Source: Verrucomicrobium sp. BvORR034 (lineage in GTDB: Bacteria > Verrucomicrobiota > Verrucomicrobiia > Verrucomicrobiales > Verrucomicrobiaceae). From it: 64,000 nucleotides of DNA. Made by a program: the position numbers and the translations under genes. The notes beneath the pieces were generated by a model. The model ran no database searches, was not told the DNA's origin, and saw only the letters and a program-made list of their open reading frames with translations. The stretch is from the NCBI RefSeq assembly GCF_000739635.1, contig NZ_BATQ01000058.1, positions 1 through 64,000 on the forward strand, in the 5' to 3' direction. This document shows positions 19,278-26,460 of the stretch, in pieces; the stretch's first letter is position 1, and each line of letters begins with the position of its first letter.

Positions 19278-19347
19278 GTGGGGGGACCCCGGCATTTGAG
19301 GCTTGCCGGTGAGAGTCATTCTCCGGTATTCTCCAAGGCACCCCCAA

Positions 19348-20892
19348 ATGAAACCTCTGTTGGTTTGTTTCCTCGGATCTTTCTGTCTGGCTGGACAGGT
19401 GGCTGCCCAGCGTCTGGACTGGAAGCCGGATGAATTTGTTTCACTGACTTCGCTGCCCTGGTTGCAGAAAGAGAGGACGATGGAGGAAGTCCTGAAGTTG
19501 ATCTTCAAAGAGCCGGATCCCGAAATTCGCTATCCCGTGCTCGCGGAGTATTTCGGCAAAGAGGTTTCAGTTCTCGATTTGTCGAAAGCATTCAACTTGT
19601 GCATCAAACTGGAGGGAACACAGCAGCCCAGTCAACTTGTGGGCGTCTTGTTGCCATTGTGGGCGAAGCGGGATCCAGCGCATGCGCTGGTCAAAGTTCG
19701 TGAACTGATGGAGCGGGTCATCTTGGAAGGTGGGCCCTTGGCACTGGATTCGTGGGAGGGTCCTGGTTGTCGGCTGGTCAGCCTGAAAGGGTTTAGGGAG
19801 GCTCCTTATTGGCTCTCTCCATGGTCTCTTGGTGGGTTGGGACCAGCATTGGCAGAGGGTGACCAGCCACCGGAGGCACGTAAGCGACGGATGCTGGAGT
19901 ATGCGGGTCTTTTTGTCGACAAGGTGGGGGCGCTCCCGGCAGCGGGTCCAATTCGTTACCCGACGTTAAATCGCCCTTTGTTGGACGTGCTGGAACTTCC
20001 GTTGCCGTTGCTCCGCGGAAAGTTGCAAGGGGCCAACGAAATCGAGTTCGATGATCCAGCCTATAGAGCTGCAGTTGCGAGAATGCTCCGTTTGGATCCA
20101 GCCTCGGCGGCCCAGTGGGTGGATTCTCTGAAAGGGGATCGACTGGGATATCTCAAGTTATGGGCGCAGCTTGACCGGCCTGGCTTGTTGAGGTGGATTC
20201 TTGAAAGGCATTCTGTGGAGGCTGATGCCGCGCCAGATGCAGAGAGCGTATTGCTTGGCAGCGTGGATGACGAAACCCGCAAGCGATGGCTGGATGTGGC
20301 AGCTCGAAAATCGGAGACAGGGGAATCCCATCTGACGGCCTTGTTGTGCGAGTGGGCACGAAGCGACCCTGAGTCCGCGCTTTCAATGGCAGTAGAATTC
20401 CGCGATGCGGATCTCATCTGCGATGTGGCAAATCGGGCAGTCTATGGGGGAGCGTCACTCTACAACACCAGCCACTATGGAATCGGTGTGCTCCGGACAT
20501 TTGATCTGACGCCGGTAAAGCGAGCTGCGAACGGGGAGGCAAAACAGTCTCTCGACTGGCACTGGGGAATCACCGAGATGGAGCAGTGGCTGGACATTGA
20601 TGTCGCCGAAGCTGCTGAGTACGGATTCAAGTATCTCACCCAAATGCAGGGTGCGAATAGTGCTTCTCGCGAGAGTTTGATCAAGCTTTTCTCGGGTGAT
20701 GATGGCTATGCCTCAGACTCCGATATGATTGACCGGACCCTTTGCGCGCTCCGCTTCTGGGCCATGTGGAAGCCCGAGACCATGAGAAAGTGGATTGCCA
20801 CCCTGAACGATCCAGAGATGCAAAAGGCTCTGACCTGGACGCTGGAGAACCCCTGGGGCAAGAGGAATTCACCGGTTGGGGTGCCGCGGTGA
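19348..20892 (+). CDS. Exported protein of unknown function
   Basis: A 514-residue protein from the ATG at 19348, with a signal peptide (KPLLVCFLGSFCLAGQVAAQ). The mature part is helical and rich in WA/W-containing repeats with DPxxA patterns (for example WAKRDPAHAL, LRLDPASAAQWVD, WARSDPESALSMA). These recall the short helical-repeat proteins common in Verrucomicrobiota exported proteomes. No catalytic residues are recognised. It lies between miaA and aroB on the same strand, 70 bases after miaA. Confidence 0.7.
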   Translation: MKPLLVCFLGSFCLAGQVAAQRLDWKPDEFVSLTSLPWLQKERTMEEVLKLIFKEPDPEIRYPVLAEYFGKEVSVLDLSKAFNLCIKLEGTQQPSQLVGVLLPLWAKRDPAHALVKVRELMERVILEGGPLALDSWEGPGCRLVSLKGFREAPYWLSPWSLGGLGPALAEGDQPPEARKRRMLEYAGLFVDKVGALPAAGPIRYPTLNRPLLDVLELPLPLLRGKLQGANEIEFDDPAYRAAVARMLRLDPASAAQWVDSLKGDRLGYLKLWAQLDRPGLLRWILERHSVEADAAPDAESVLLGSVDDETRKRWLDVAARKSETGESHLTALLCEWARSDPESALSMAVEFRDADLICDVANRAVYGGASLYNTSHYGIGVLRTFDLTPVKRAANGEAKQSLDWHWGITEMEQWLDIDVAEAAEYGFKYLTQMQGANSASRESLIKLFSGDDGYASDSDMIDRTLCALRFWAMWKPETMRKWIATLNDPEMQKALTWTLENPWGKRNSPVGVPR

Positions 20893-20965
20893 GCATCCGG
20901 GGAATGCATGCCCCATCTAAAACCCACTTGCACTCAGCCCTGGTCCGGTCATGACTGAGGGTTCC

Positions 20966-22051
20966 ATGTCTGAATGTCTCTCAGTCCGCGTCGATCTCGC
21001 CGAACGTAGCTACGATGTCTATGTAGGGAGCGGTTTGCTTCCGCATGTGGGAACCTACGCGACGGAACTTCTGGGAAGGAAAAAGTGCGTGGTAGTGACG
21101 GACACCAACGTGGAGCCTCTCTACGGTCAGACGGTGATCGACAGCCTCGAGCAGAGCGGGATCACTGCCACCCTGGTCGCCGTTCCGGCGGGTGAGCCCA
21201 GCAAGGCCATGTCGGTGGTGGAAGATGTGTGCCGGGAGATGCTGAAGGCCGGGCTTGATCGGAAGTCCTTCCTGGTGGCACTCGGCGGGGGCGTGATCGG
21301 GGATTTGGCTGGGTTTGCCGCCTCAATCTTTTTGCGCGGAATTCCCTTCATTCAAGTGCCCACGACGGTGCTTTCCCAGGTGGACAGCAGTGTCGGCGGC
21401 AAAACGGGCGTGAACACGCCGGAGGGCAAGAACCTTCTCGGTACCTTCTACCAGCCCAGCCTGGTGCTGGCAGATGTGGACACCCTCTCCAGCCTCCCAG
21501 AACGGGAGTATCGCGAGGGGTTCGCGGAGATCATCAAGCACGCCGCCATCCGGGATGCCTTCATGTTTGAAGCCATCGCCGAAGTGGGAGAGGGTAAAGG
21601 CGACCTTGCAGCGTTGATCCACCGGAATGTGGCGATCAAGGCCCGCATTGTGGAAGCGGATGAACATGAAACCAAGGGGGAGCGGGCATTGCTCAATTTC
21701 GGCCATACCATTGGCCATGCCATTGAGGCCAGCGCCGGTTATGGTCAGTTGCTGCACGGGGAGGCCATCAGCCTCGGCATGATTGCGGCGACGTCATTGT
21801 CCGCTCAGCTTGCCGGGCTACCGCCTGTTGGCCGCGCGAAGATCGCCAACATGGTGAAGCTCTTCAACCTGCCCACCCGGCTTCCGGAAGGGATGACCAC
21901 CGAGACCATCCTGGACTACATGAAACACGACAAGAAGTTCAGCGAGGGAAGCATTCGCTTTGTACTGCTTCGCGCCCTCGGGGATGCCTATGTGAGCAAG
22001 GATGTTACCGAAGCGCACATCGTCAGTGCGATCAAAGGGCTGCGGTTTTAG
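20966..22051 (+). CDS. aroB: 3-dehydroquinate synthase
   Basis: 361 residues. It converts DAHP to 3-dehydroquinate in the shikimate pathway, using NAD and Zn. Clear motifs are the glycine-rich NAD site (ALGGGVIGDLAGFAAS), VPTTVLSQVDSSVGGKTGVN, the zinc/active-site GFAEIIKHA, NFGHTIGHAIE and LLHGEAISLGM. The ATG at 20966 is preferred because GAGGG lies about six bases upstream; an ATG at 20951 is the alternative. The gene ends four bases inside the stop of the convergent M56 gene. No other shikimate gene is nearby. Confidence 0.97.
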   Translation: MSECLSVRVDLAERSYDVYVGSGLLPHVGTYATELLGRKKCVVVTDTNVEPLYGQTVIDSLEQSGITATLVAVPAGEPSKAMSVVEDVCREMLKAGLDRKSFLVALGGGVIGDLAGFAASIFLRGIPFIQVPTTVLSQVDSSVGGKTGVNTPEGKNLLGTFYQPSLVLADVDTLSSLPEREYREGFAEIIKHAAIRDAFMFEAIAEVGEGKGDLAALIHRNVAIKARIVEADEHETKGERALLNFGHTIGHAIEASAGYGQLLHGEAISLGMIAATSLSAQLAGLPPVGRAKIANMVKLFNLPTRLPEGMTTETILDYMKHDKKFSEGSIRFVLLRALGDAYVSKDVTEAHIVSAIKGLRF

Positions 22052-25000
22052 TTCGCGATCTGACGGTGAAACTCCTGTGATGGGGCGCCCGGCACAAGAT
22101 ACGCTTCGAGGGCTTGAAATCCAGGTTCAGCGGGAAGCGTGAGATGATGCTTTCCGGGAGCCTCAAAATTGAGGCTCTCTATGATTAGTCTTCCATCTCC
22201 GTCGGTGAATTGTTCCGCCTTGTTACTCGTGTAGAGATGGCTCGTGTACCGCAAACTGACAGGCTTGTTGCGGCAGGGGGAGCCATCTGGCTCCAGAATC
22301 GTGACGTGGATGGGTGGGCTTGGACGGACCTTGAAGCTGAACTCCCGGATTGGTTTCTTTTCATCGATTGCGAACAATGGGCTTTCGATGAAGAGGGAGC
22401 CGGCGTTGAGCACCAGTCGGTATTTGTTGCCGAAGGGGAGGTTCGAGAAGTAGACCGTTTGAGAGTCCTTCAAGAATTCTACTCTGGGGTCTATGGGAGG
22501 TCTTGAGATGCCAAGCTCGCTATTGTCCAGAACGTCAGCCGAGATATTGCCAAGACGATCGGAGAGTTCGAGCTTTGCGACAACGCTTCCCGCCGGAATC
22601 AGGGACATTTCGTGCACGATGGGGGCTGCACCAGCGGTGACCACGAAGAACGGGAACCTTCTGGACAGGGTGTAGCCCTTCAGGCCATGCCCCTCGGTCG
22701 ATACCTGGGCTCCCAGAGGCGCATTGAATTGCAGGGAATTGTTGACCACCTTGACAAATGTTGGCCTGGCCTGGACGTTGAACGCAACCTCACCTGAAGC
22801 CGGAGGACTGTCTTTCGGAGGGACCAGATTAAAGATGATCTTGCGGGTCTCTCTTTGTTCTTCGGCGGGGTTGGTCGGGGGCGTTTCGGTGATTCCTGAT
22901 CGGGTGATATAGAGATCCAGGTCGCTCTGCGAATGAGCGAGGTCTCTTTTCCAGGTGAGTCCTCGTCCCAAAACAACTTCCAAGGGGCCTGGGGAAAGAT
23001 CTCCTAGGACGACTCGTTGGCTCCTGAGCCCGCGGTCTATCGGGATGGCTGATCTCCAACCCACACTGAGTTGCCAATCGTTTAATTTAGGGAGAGTGAG
23101 CGTGGAAGTTGCGGAGAACTTCACACCTGCAGCGAGTTCAGGGAGGAGGCCAAGAGGGTCATGAATGGTTGCGTCAAATTTCAGCCCTCTAGAGAGATGA
23201 ACTTTCAGATTGTTGGTGCGACTGGCCCCACCTTGCGGGATGAGCAATGCCTTGGGGGCATATCCAGGAGCTTTGACGATCACACCATATAGGCTGGACG
23301 GATGACAAACATCCAGATCCAGGCGACCTTCACGATCTGAAGCAGTCGAAGCGAGCGGGGGCTGTTGGTCATACCAACTGCCAAAGGAGCTTCCCCAGCC
23401 GCGGCCTCCGCAGAACGCCCATGCGCCTTCGACTGGTTTGCCAGTCTCTTGGTCGAGTACCCTCAGCGTGATTGGAGTGACTCGCTTCAAAGTAAGAGTT
23501 CTCGCTTCGCCCGGTAAAAAACGTATGCCCCCAAAAAGGGTCCACTCATAACCGTGAGCAAACGCTTCCAACGTGACGCGGGACGAACCTGTAACATGGC
23601 CGAAGCGGATCCGGCCGTCTGATTGAGATTCAAACGGAGATCGAAGTTGGAATGCGCTTCTTTCAGGCGCCGAAGAATCTACTGTAACCATCGCACCAGG
23701 GATCGGCTCGCCTGCTTCGTTGACGATTATCAGTTCTGCCGGGAATCCTTTTTCGAGTCTTACTCGGTGGGGGGCTGTGCTGGATGCAAGGTCAGGCGAG
23801 GGTATCCTTGTAGTGACCGGAGCGTGCCCATCAGGCCAGGCGGAGACTTGTGCCCACTGCCCTCTCCCGCGGACATTAAAGTGCGACGCCATATCCGTCT
23901 CGAATGCGTCTGATATTCCAATAGAGAACGTTGCGATCTCGATCTTCGTTTTGCCCCCAGGCAAGGTTACTCCGGCTTCGTCAACCAGTTGTGCTTGGGC
24001 CGACCATTCGACATCGGACTCTTTTGGCAGGTTGGTCTCGACGGCTGAGATGGCGGCAATTCTCTCTTCATCGGTCATCGCGCGGGCTGCACGAGGTACG
24101 GCGACAACAGCGAAGACAAGCGACAAAGCCGTCACCGCATGGATCATCAGACCCGGTTGCCAGAGGGGGCTCAGACTTTCATGACTGGCATCGGTCGGCA
24201 TAAGGAGAATCCTCCGCAACCTCGTCATCAGGTGGTGATTTCCTGTGGCAGCTAATGCAAGACCCTCATCCCTGAACGTTTCCAATTGAGCCAATGCTCT
24301 GGCATACGTCTGACGATCTGAGTTCATGGAAATGACAAGGTCATCGCAGGCGAGCTCAGCCTCCCATCGTGCCCGGCGGACCAGATCTCTGGCGGCAGGG
24401 TTGAAGAAGAGCAGAGTCTCGACTGCGGTCAGTGCCAGATTGATCGCCGGATCCCGTCGTTTAAGATGGGCCAGTTCATGCAGAAGCAGCGCCTGCAACG
24501 ACTTTTGGTCCATTCTGCCAATCAGCTGTGCTGGAAGCAGAACCACCGGACGAATCCAGCCAACGACCAGGGGCACGGAAAGAGCGGGCGCAGCCAGGAC
24601 CTCGGCCGTGTGCAGACCGATTCTGGCCAGAAGTTGGTCGACGTAGGGCGGGCCGACCCATGGGGATGCTCCTAATCTGATGCGGGCGAACATCCGGTGT
24701 CCGACCAACAACCGCAGGGTGAGCAGCACGATTCCCAACACCCATCCCAGAGCGATGAGGGCGGCCCAGTTGGATTGTCCTTGGGGGCTTGAGGGAAGCT
24801 GAATCTCATTGGACAATGGCGCTGACAATGCGGCTGTTCTATCAGTGCGTGAGTTGGAATGCCCTCCCGGCGACATTGTTGCGGGAGTTGTGGAAGCAGC
24901 CTCGGCGCGGGCTTGGAGGACGTGAGGCGCGACGGTAGCGCGGCCCAACCAAGCCACGGTGGTTGGGATACAAAGGGTCAACAACGCGATTGCTGTCAGA

Positions 25001-25149
25001 CAGATCCGATGACGCACTTCTGGCGAACGTCGTCGGCACAGTGCCAAAATGGTGGCTGTGACAGCCAGAATGACTAACCCCTGCCACAGGGAATGGAGCA
25101 AGCCCATCCCAAGATGGTTGAGCCAGGGAGAGATGATGATCGCTTCCAT
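22048..25149 (-). CDS. BlaR1-type M56 family membrane metallopeptidase with large extracytoplasmic tail
   Basis: 1033 residues. The N-terminal third matches the M56/BlaR1 sensor protease: membrane spans near 15-38, 50-68, 130-150 and after 330, and the zincin motif HELAH at 224-228 followed by KRRDPAIN and a downstream EAELACDD ligand segment. In BlaR1 systems this domain cleaves the repressor BlaI. The remaining ~650 residues are extracytoplasmic, with repeated Ig-like carboxypeptidase-regulatory features (LRVLDQETGKPVEGAW and similar), not a penicillin-binding domain. Two palindromes at 25183-25242 lie upstream. No BlaI-type repressor gene adjoins it, which is unusual for the family. Confidence 0.85.
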   Translation of the reverse strand: MEAIIISPWLNHLGMGLLHSLWQGLVILAVTATILALCRRRSPEVRHRICLTAIALLTLCIPTTVAWLGRATVAPHVLQARAEAASTTPATMSPGGHSNSRTDRTAALSAPLSNEIQLPSSPQGQSNWAALIALGWVLGIVLLTLRLLVGHRMFARIRLGASPWVGPPYVDQLLARIGLHTAEVLAAPALSVPLVVGWIRPVVLLPAQLIGRMDQKSLQALLLHELAHLKRRDPAINLALTAVETLLFFNPAARDLVRRARWEAELACDDLVISMNSDRQTYARALAQLETFRDEGLALAATGNHHLMTRLRRILLMPTDASHESLSPLWQPGLMIHAVTALSLVFAVVAVPRAARAMTDEERIAAISAVETNLPKESDVEWSAQAQLVDEAGVTLPGGKTKIEIATFSIGISDAFETDMASHFNVRGRGQWAQVSAWPDGHAPVTTRIPSPDLASSTAPHRVRLEKGFPAELIIVNEAGEPIPGAMVTVDSSAPERSAFQLRSPFESQSDGRIRFGHVTGSSRVTLEAFAHGYEWTLFGGIRFLPGEARTLTLKRVTPITLRVLDQETGKPVEGAWAFCGGRGWGSSFGSWYDQQPPLASTASDREGRLDLDVCHPSSLYGVIVKAPGYAPKALLIPQGGASRTNNLKVHLSRGLKFDATIHDPLGLLPELAAGVKFSATSTLTLPKLNDWQLSVGWRSAIPIDRGLRSQRVVLGDLSPGPLEVVLGRGLTWKRDLAHSQSDLDLYITRSGITETPPTNPAEEQRETRKIIFNLVPPKDSPPASGEVAFNVQARPTFVKVVNNSLQFNAPLGAQVSTEGHGLKGYTLSRRFPFFVVTAGAAPIVHEMSLIPAGSVVAKLELSDRLGNISADVLDNSELGISRPPIDPRVEFLKDSQTVYFSNLPFGNKYRLVLNAGSLFIESPLFAIDEKKPIREFSFKVRPSPPIHVTILEPDGSPCRNKPVSLRYTSHLYTSNKAEQFTDGDGRLIIESLNFEAPGKHHLTLPAEPGFQALEAYLVPGAPSQEFHRQIAN

Positions 25150-25182
25150 AAATCAAGCTGCGCAGTCGAGGAGGGATGAATG

Positions 25183-25242
25183 TACGATGATTATCGTATA
25201 AAATGGCATGGGTGGTCGGATCTAGTCAACGATAATAATCGT
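25183..25242 (-). promoter_or_regulatory. Paired BlaI-like operator palindromes upstream of the M56 gene
   Basis: Two perfect inverted repeats share the half-site ACGAT-N4-ATCGT. One is TACGATGATTATCGTA (25183-25198) and the other ACGATAATAATCGT (25229-25242), with centres 45 bases apart. A minus-strand TTGACT (25229-25224) touches the outer palindrome and an AT-rich TTTTATACG overlaps the inner one, so they appear to bracket the promoter, though the -35/-10 spacing is not ideal. Spacing and dyad form fit BlaI/MecI-type winged-helix repressors; the repressor itself is not encoded nearby. Confidence 0.7.
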
Positions 25243-25356: not shown

Positions 25357-26460
25357 ATGACCCGCACCGAAGCCTATCTCGTCCTCAACCTTCTTCCCAA
25401 AATCGGTCCCGTTCGAGTGCGGCGCTTGGTGGAGTGGTTTGGCGGGCCGGTGGAGGCTTTGTCGGCACTGGCGGCAGACATCAAGCGGGTGGAGGGCTTC
25501 GGAGAAGAACTGGCTCAACTGGTGGCCGGGTGGGAAGATCGCGTGGATCTGAGCAGGGAGTTGCGGAGAATCGAGGAAGAGCGGATCACCATCCTGACCC
25601 AGGAGGATGCCAGTTATCCCAAGCTGCTGAAGCAGATCTATGATCCACCGCTGGTGCTCTACGTGAAGGGAACGTTGCTCCCGCGGGACCAGCATGGGAT
25701 CGGCATCGTGGGTTCACGGCATGCCACCCAGTATGGCTTGAGCACGGCCAAGAAGCTGGGCTTCCAGCTTGCCTACGCCGGATACAGTGTCATCAGCGGC
25801 CTGGCTCGTGGCATCGACACCGCCGCCCACGAGGGGGCGCTGGCCAGCAAGGGGCGGACGATCGCGGTGATCGGCTCAGGTCTGGGCAAACTGTACCCAC
25901 CGGAGAACAAAGCCCTGGCAGAAAAGATCGCCGAAAACGGGGCTGTGATCAGCGAGTTCCCGGTGGATTGCCCGCCGGACAAGCAGACATTCCCCATGCG
26001 AAACCGGATAGTGAGCGGATGGAGCTGCGGGATTGTCGTCGTGGAAGCCCCGGGCCGAAGCGGCTCACTTATCACGGCGCAGCAGGCCGTGGAGCAGGGG
26101 CGAACAGTCTATGCGGTGCCCGGCAACATTGACAGGCCTTCATCACAGGGGTGCAACCGGCTCATTCAACAGGGTGCCAAGCTCATCCTGGACGGCGGGG
26201 ATGTGCTGGATGATTTGATGACGCTTTTCCCGACCGAGCCTCAGGCACCCAAGATGGAAAGCGTGCAACCCGGCGTCACTCTGGCCGCGGACGAGGCTGC
26301 GGTGTTTGAGGCCATCGGCTCAGGGGAGGTTCATATCAATGAAATCACGGAACGCTGTACCACGCTCTCCGGACCGGTGGTCTCCGCGACGCTCATGAAG
26401 CTGGAGATCAAGCGGGTCGTGAAGCCACTCCCGGGAAAGCACTATGTGAAGCTGGTGTAG
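25357..26460 (+). CDS. dprA: DNA-processing protein DprA
   Basis: A 367-residue protein that loads RecA on incoming single-stranded DNA during natural transformation. The N-terminal helix-hairpin/SAM-like region (about 1-70) is followed by the Rossmann-like DprA core. Signature motifs are IGIVGSRHATQYG, ISGLARGIDTAAHEGAL, IGSGLGKLYPPENK, PPDKQTFPMRNRI and VVVEAPGRSGSLITAQ. A winged-helix-like C-terminus (about 300-367) matches the usual DprA/Smf plan. It ends ten bases before the stop of convergent lnt. No other competence gene is in the window. Confidence 0.96.
   Translation: MTRTEAYLVLNLLPKIGPVRVRRLVEWFGGPVEALSALAADIKRVEGFGEELAQLVAGWEDRVDLSRELRRIEEERITILTQEDASYPKLLKQIYDPPLVLYVKGTLLPRDQHGIGIVGSRHATQYGLSTAKKLGFQLAYAGYSVISGLARGIDTAAHEGALASKGRTIAVIGSGLGKLYPPENKALAEKIAENGAVISEFPVDCPPDKQTFPMRNRIVSGWSCGIVVVEAPGRSGSLITAQQAVEQGRTVYAVPGNIDRPSSQGCNRLIQQGAKLILDGGDVLDDLMTLFPTEPQAPKMESVQPGVTLAADEAAVFEAIGSGEVHINEITERCTTLSGPVVSATLMKLEIKRVVKPLPGKHYVKLV

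Follow-up and report, generated by a model that had tools for sequence, protein, structure and literature searches.

A candidate second, unlinked receptor for a BlaI/BlaR1-type switch in Verrucomicrobium sp. BvORR034

Described BlaI/BlaR1-type systems and the orphan receptor gene

Among the closest described systems, BlaR1 of Staphylococcus aureus cleaves the repressor BlaI directly (PMC9834060). In the same organism either the bla or the mec system is enough by itself to control blaZ and mecA, and MecI repression is not released by BlaR1 (PMC3149077). For Mycobacterium tuberculosis, a passage of PMC12565901 that cites Sala et al. 2009 gives blaC and genes for ATP synthesis and cell division as targets of BlaI (Rv1846c). 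In the PetR/PetP system of Synechocystis, a BlaI-family regulator with a very small regulon is broken down by a protease of the BlaR1 family, the signal being copper (PMC7896320).

We analyzed a window of 64,000 nucleotides from Verrucomicrobium sp. BvORR034, in which an M56/BlaR1-type gene (the orphan) lies between aroB and dprA (Table 1). Like BlaI/BlaR1 and MecI/MecR1 of S. aureus, the system proposed here comprises a BlaI-family repressor, an M56 zinc protease with an extracytoplasmic sensor, and operators that are common to different loci. Whereas the S. aureus receptors each come with their own repressor and a penicillin-binding sensor, the orphan by sequence has neither. The likeness to Rv1846c, as far as the cited passage describes it, is a BlaI with a target beyond its own genes; the further targets in M. 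tuberculosis are effectors, whereas the remote target here would be a second receptor. With PetR/PetP the system would share a very small regulon and a receptor signal other than beta-lactams, which in the present case we infer. PetR and PetP adjoin and involve a single receptor, in contrast to the two receptors, one of them unlinked, considered here. Within an incomplete coverage of the literature, no M56 receptor turned up that is encoded apart from the BlaI controlling it, nor a second receptor of this kind for a single BlaI.

Table 1. Features of the orphan locus in window coordinates
Feature	Position	Strand	Details
aroB, convergent flank	20951..22051	+	4-bp overlap with the end of the M56 gene
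Orphan M56/BlaR1-type membrane metalloprotease-receptor gene	22048..25149	-	ORF, 1033 aa, ATG start
Operator 2 (gene-proximal)	25184..25197	-	ACGATGATTATCGT; gene strand ACGATAATCATCGT; ends ~35 bp before the ATG
Proposed -35 TTGACT	25224..25229	-	overlaps the end of operator 1
Operator 1 (gene-distal)	25229..25242	-	ACGATAATAATCGT; gene strand ACGATTATTATCGT, inside TACGATTATTATCGTTGAC
Probable separate dprA promoter, TTGACA-N16-TACAAA	25282..25309	+	40 bp beyond operator 1; conserved
dprA, divergent flank	25357..26460	+	

The orphan protein scores 99.9 bits against PF05569, for which the curated cut-off is 31, and its Peptidase_M56 match covers residues 100–311 (E 2e-27). The HELAH (HEXXH) motif at residue 224 is kept across the clade to which the protein belongs, and an ACDD motif stands at residue 267. 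Judged by hydropathy only, the protein has hydrophobic segments at residues 20–38, 49–67, 131–149, ~181–210 and 333–351, an architecture of several transmembrane helices in the N-terminal part followed by an extracytoplasmic sensor. The ~680 residues beyond the last of these helices are probably this sensor, and they include a CarboxypepD_reg match (Pfam, residues 475–554). The protein has no Pfam match to a transpeptidase or penicillin-binding domain and no SxxK motif C-terminal to residue 356, and solved BlaR1 structures match it in the protease part only (profile positions 99–318). A penicillin-binding SxxK sensor and an adjacent blaI or mecI, which together define BlaR1/MecR1 beta-lactam receptors in the strict sense, are both missing. 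The predicted structure has a mean pLDDT of 47 and hints, at most, at a sensor rich in beta strands behind a helical N-terminal third.

The genome (8.58 Mb in 200 contigs, 99.96% complete) encodes eight BlaI and nine M56 proteins. Eight of the nine M56 genes adjoin a blaI gene; the orphan alone does not, and all eight BlaI are encoded on contigs other than the one that carries it. Across 14 genomes of the order, M56 genes stand beside blaI in 42 of 44 cases (one split gene counted once), the exceptions being the orphan and its orthologue in Verrucomicrobium sp. BvORR106. BlaR1-type receptors are matched to their repressor through this adjacency, whereas the match for the orphan is made through the operator alone. 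The mirror image, a BlaI gene with no adjacent M56 match, occurs at G003:C1:4694580, G003:C1:7746617 and G070:C76:185022. Another M56 protein of BvORR034, encoded beside a blaI (G000:C116, L037:1097-3991, minus strand), resembles by eye a penicillin-binding transpeptidase in its C-terminal part, and may be the true beta-lactam receptor of this genome. A single gene for a 529-aa protein adjoins aroB in the window (19303-20892), and at the corresponding place BvORR106 has two related genes (L074:8252-10979); we report these genes as a lineage-specific tandem family.

The paired operator and the BlaI that shares it

Both dyads upstream of the orphan match ACGAT-N4-ATCGT with zero mismatches and lie 45 bp apart, start to start. 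They are the only exact matches in the 64-kb window, for which base composition predicts 0.03. A scan of this promoter for the sigma-70 consensus scored no full consensus promoter. The sequence-only reading of this stretch had described the HELAH-bearing M56 domain, the long extracytoplasmic region that does not bind penicillin, the two perfect dyads, and aroB and dprA as neighbors in place of blaI, and each of these descriptions holds. Its model called for BlaI homologues and other matching operators in the genome; eight BlaI and, with the two here included, eight single sites were found, and the paired form recurs in front of a blaI gene on contig C66.

With ~4.4 single ACGAT-N4-ATCGT sites expected, a count of eight is only slightly raised and by itself uninformative; the informative feature is the paired arrangement. 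Searched as ACGA-N6-TCGT, N25-36, ACGA-N6-TCGT, it occurs at two places in 8.58 Mb (the orphan promoter and C66:12623-12680) against ~0.02 (0.017) expected from base composition. The reversed pattern, used as a control, occurs nowhere in the genome. The C66 pair precedes the blaI gene C66:12694-13101 (product 135 aa), with an M56 gene downstream. The orphan promoter hence carries the paired operators of the C66 BlaI, which makes it a predicted member of the same regulon. The M56 protein of C66 (1024 aa) aligns with the orphan at 32% identity over 1025 aa (E 3e-139), and the next M56 of the genome aligns in the protease part only.

The promoters of the other seven blaI operons contain quite different dyads, for example CTGTTGAN4TCAACAG, TGCTAAAN2TTTAGCA and CACTACATTTGTAGT. 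These blaI-M56 operons lie on contigs C191, C16, C116, C200, C127, C68 and C17 (loci L009-L014 and L016), and their dyads are paired or near-paired and sit shortly before the blaI start. Each BlaI thus appears to use a box of its own, and the box before the orphan is that of C66. Apparently, this genome uses one private operator code per BlaI, and the set of seven operons should be useful for learning BlaI specificity.

Beyond these two loci the paired box preceded no other gene of the genome, and we found no convincing match to a box plus TTGAC and no effector gene, beta-lactamase or penicillin-binding protein target with the paired box. This outcome suggests that the role of effector falls either to the receptors themselves or to genes with weaker, single boxes. 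The six other single-box sites were rejected as chance occurrences with neither blaI nor M56 as neighbor. Near matches with two mismatches at C68, C175 and C194 are embedded in long open frames, and that at C177 forms a poor dyad close to the start of an open reading frame. A further candidate, C123:44226, is situated immediately past the end of a long gene. In 115 genomes of the order the paired pattern turned up no more than three further times, in G006, G011 and G017; these boxes are different, mostly GC-rich, and were taken as chance.

The sequence-only reading had offered two explanations for the operators: either a remote BlaI-type repressor controls several genes through this box, or the receptor answers to another regulator. 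The former finds support as to the remote BlaI, in that a single BlaI operon elsewhere in the genome (C66:12694) shares the paired boxes and its receptor is the closest paralogue of the orphan, but "several" is reduced to two promoters. The latter is not needed.

Conservation and kinship in related genomes

Both loci are present in BvORR106 (G002), with boxes at both. The orphan orthologue of this species is 84% identical, with a dN/dS of 0.22. All 32 operator bases (32/32) are kept between the two orphan promoters, as opposed to 72 of 99 (73%) in the rest of the spacer (Fisher p = 3e-4). Another relative, G003, has a C66-type pair with boxes, and its aroB and dprA are separated by a short spacer that contains neither box nor M56 gene; in G001 also, aroB adjoins dprA without an M56 gene between them. 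The presence of the pair without the orphan in G003 indicates that the second receptor is dispensable. In the sister-genus genomes G004 and G014, a single blaI-M56 pair with boxes is located directly beyond aroB-dprA.

The similarities extend to the promoters and to the repressor. In each of the seven clade promoters the first box leads straight into TTGAC, and the spacing of the boxes is 43–45 bp. The 19 bases that comprise operator 1 and the proposed -35 of the orphan (TACGATTATTATCGTTGAC) are identical to those before blaI of G004 and G014. Boxes are found at the C66 BlaI and at all four of its orthologues (5/5), with TTGAC at the same place. A putative recognition stretch, KGSYTTVLKQFQVMHEKGL, is exactly conserved in these five proteins and occurs in no other BlaI of BvORR034.

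When the protease parts of these and other M56 proteins of the family were placed in a tree, the seven with boxes at their promoters grouped as a single clade (support 100/99). Three long lineages make up this clade, one each for the orphan, the C66 receptor and the sister genus, and their branching order did not come out with two outgroup sets. The location near aroB-dprA together with the shared box suggests that the orphan descends from a local pair minus its blaI. Loss of blaI from a copy at this location is the likely history of the orphan, and the protease tree neither supports nor excludes such a descent. Between sister genera (L077 of G004 and L078 of G014 versus L036), BlaI is ~73% identical and the paired M56 ~33%, a sign that the repressor is by far the slower-evolving partner of the sensor protease.

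Alternative readings and the proposed circuit

We consider it likely that one BlaI/BlaR1-type switch has the orphan as a second receptor, encoded at a separate locus. Its operators could instead belong to other players. The boxes sit in a spacer common to dprA and the M56 gene, so that they might serve dprA. This assignment is hardly credible, because the TTGACA/TACAAA segment nearer to dprA is conserved in BvORR106 and also in G003, which has no operators there; we do not think that this segment is part of the BlaI circuit. Moreover, the box geometry and the overlapping TTGAC fit blaI promoters on the strand of the M56 gene, and the boxes of G004 and G014 front blaI instead of dprA. Use of the boxes by an unrelated regulator is very improbable, since this box type tracks the orthologue of the C66 BlaI in five genomes and is absent from the other BlaI promoters of the same genome.

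The remaining alternatives accept the operators and question the role of the protein. The orphan could be a decaying relic of a lost blaI-M56 copy, with operators that survive for no other reason than the recency of the split. The absence of an orphan at aroB-dprA in G003 and G001 would fit this history, as would a slight relaxation of the protease part (dN/dS 0.31, versus 0.18 for the whole paired receptor). We nevertheless judge decay improbable: two species retain intact frames of 1031–1033 aa with the catalytic motifs, the overall dN/dS is low enough to speak against it, the operators were fully conserved while the surrounding spacer diverged, and the identity of 32% to other receptors indicates an old lineage instead of a recent copy. 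It is also conceivable that the orphan is an output only, a protease/sensor for another pathway that is controlled by the C66 BlaI without feeding back on it. The lack of an adjacent repressor and the strongly diverged sensor are compatible with this idea, and since other output genes were not found, the orphan could be one. We regard an output-only role as possible but doubtful, because all other M56 of the clade pair with this type of BlaI and the protease part is homologous throughout.

Returning to the orphan as a second receptor, there is strong sequence evidence that the C66 BlaI would repress both promoters, and remote control of the orphan is well supported as a two-promoter regulon of one repressor and two receptors. 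The gene, its boxes and their uniqueness, the paralogy and the persistence of this layout in two species are read directly from sequence; BlaI binding, repression, cleavage of BlaI by the orphan and the signal are what we infer from them. In the proposed mechanism, the BlaI of C66:12694 would bind as dimers at the two dyads in the promoters of its own operon and of the orphan; with the first box overlapping the -35 element, it would repress both loci. A ligand, not evidently a beta-lactam, would engage the sensor of either receptor, and the cytoplasmic zinc protease of the ligand-bound receptor would then cleave the C66 BlaI, so that repression is lifted at the two loci at once. With a single repressor acting on both receptor genes, either receptor may release both and each may raise the level of the other. 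Two sensors would thus probably feed one switch. In the fuller version, one BlaI would control, and be inactivated by, two receptors that are unlinked and differ strongly in their sensors; the result would be an OR-type input, mutual amplification and a closed regulon of repressor and receptors only. That version could equally prove right or wrong.

The orphan provides a clean test case for whether two inputs can act on a single BlaI switch. It is also a test case for what the non-beta-lactam BlaR1-type receptors, of which these Verrucomicrobiota have several per genome, sense and control.
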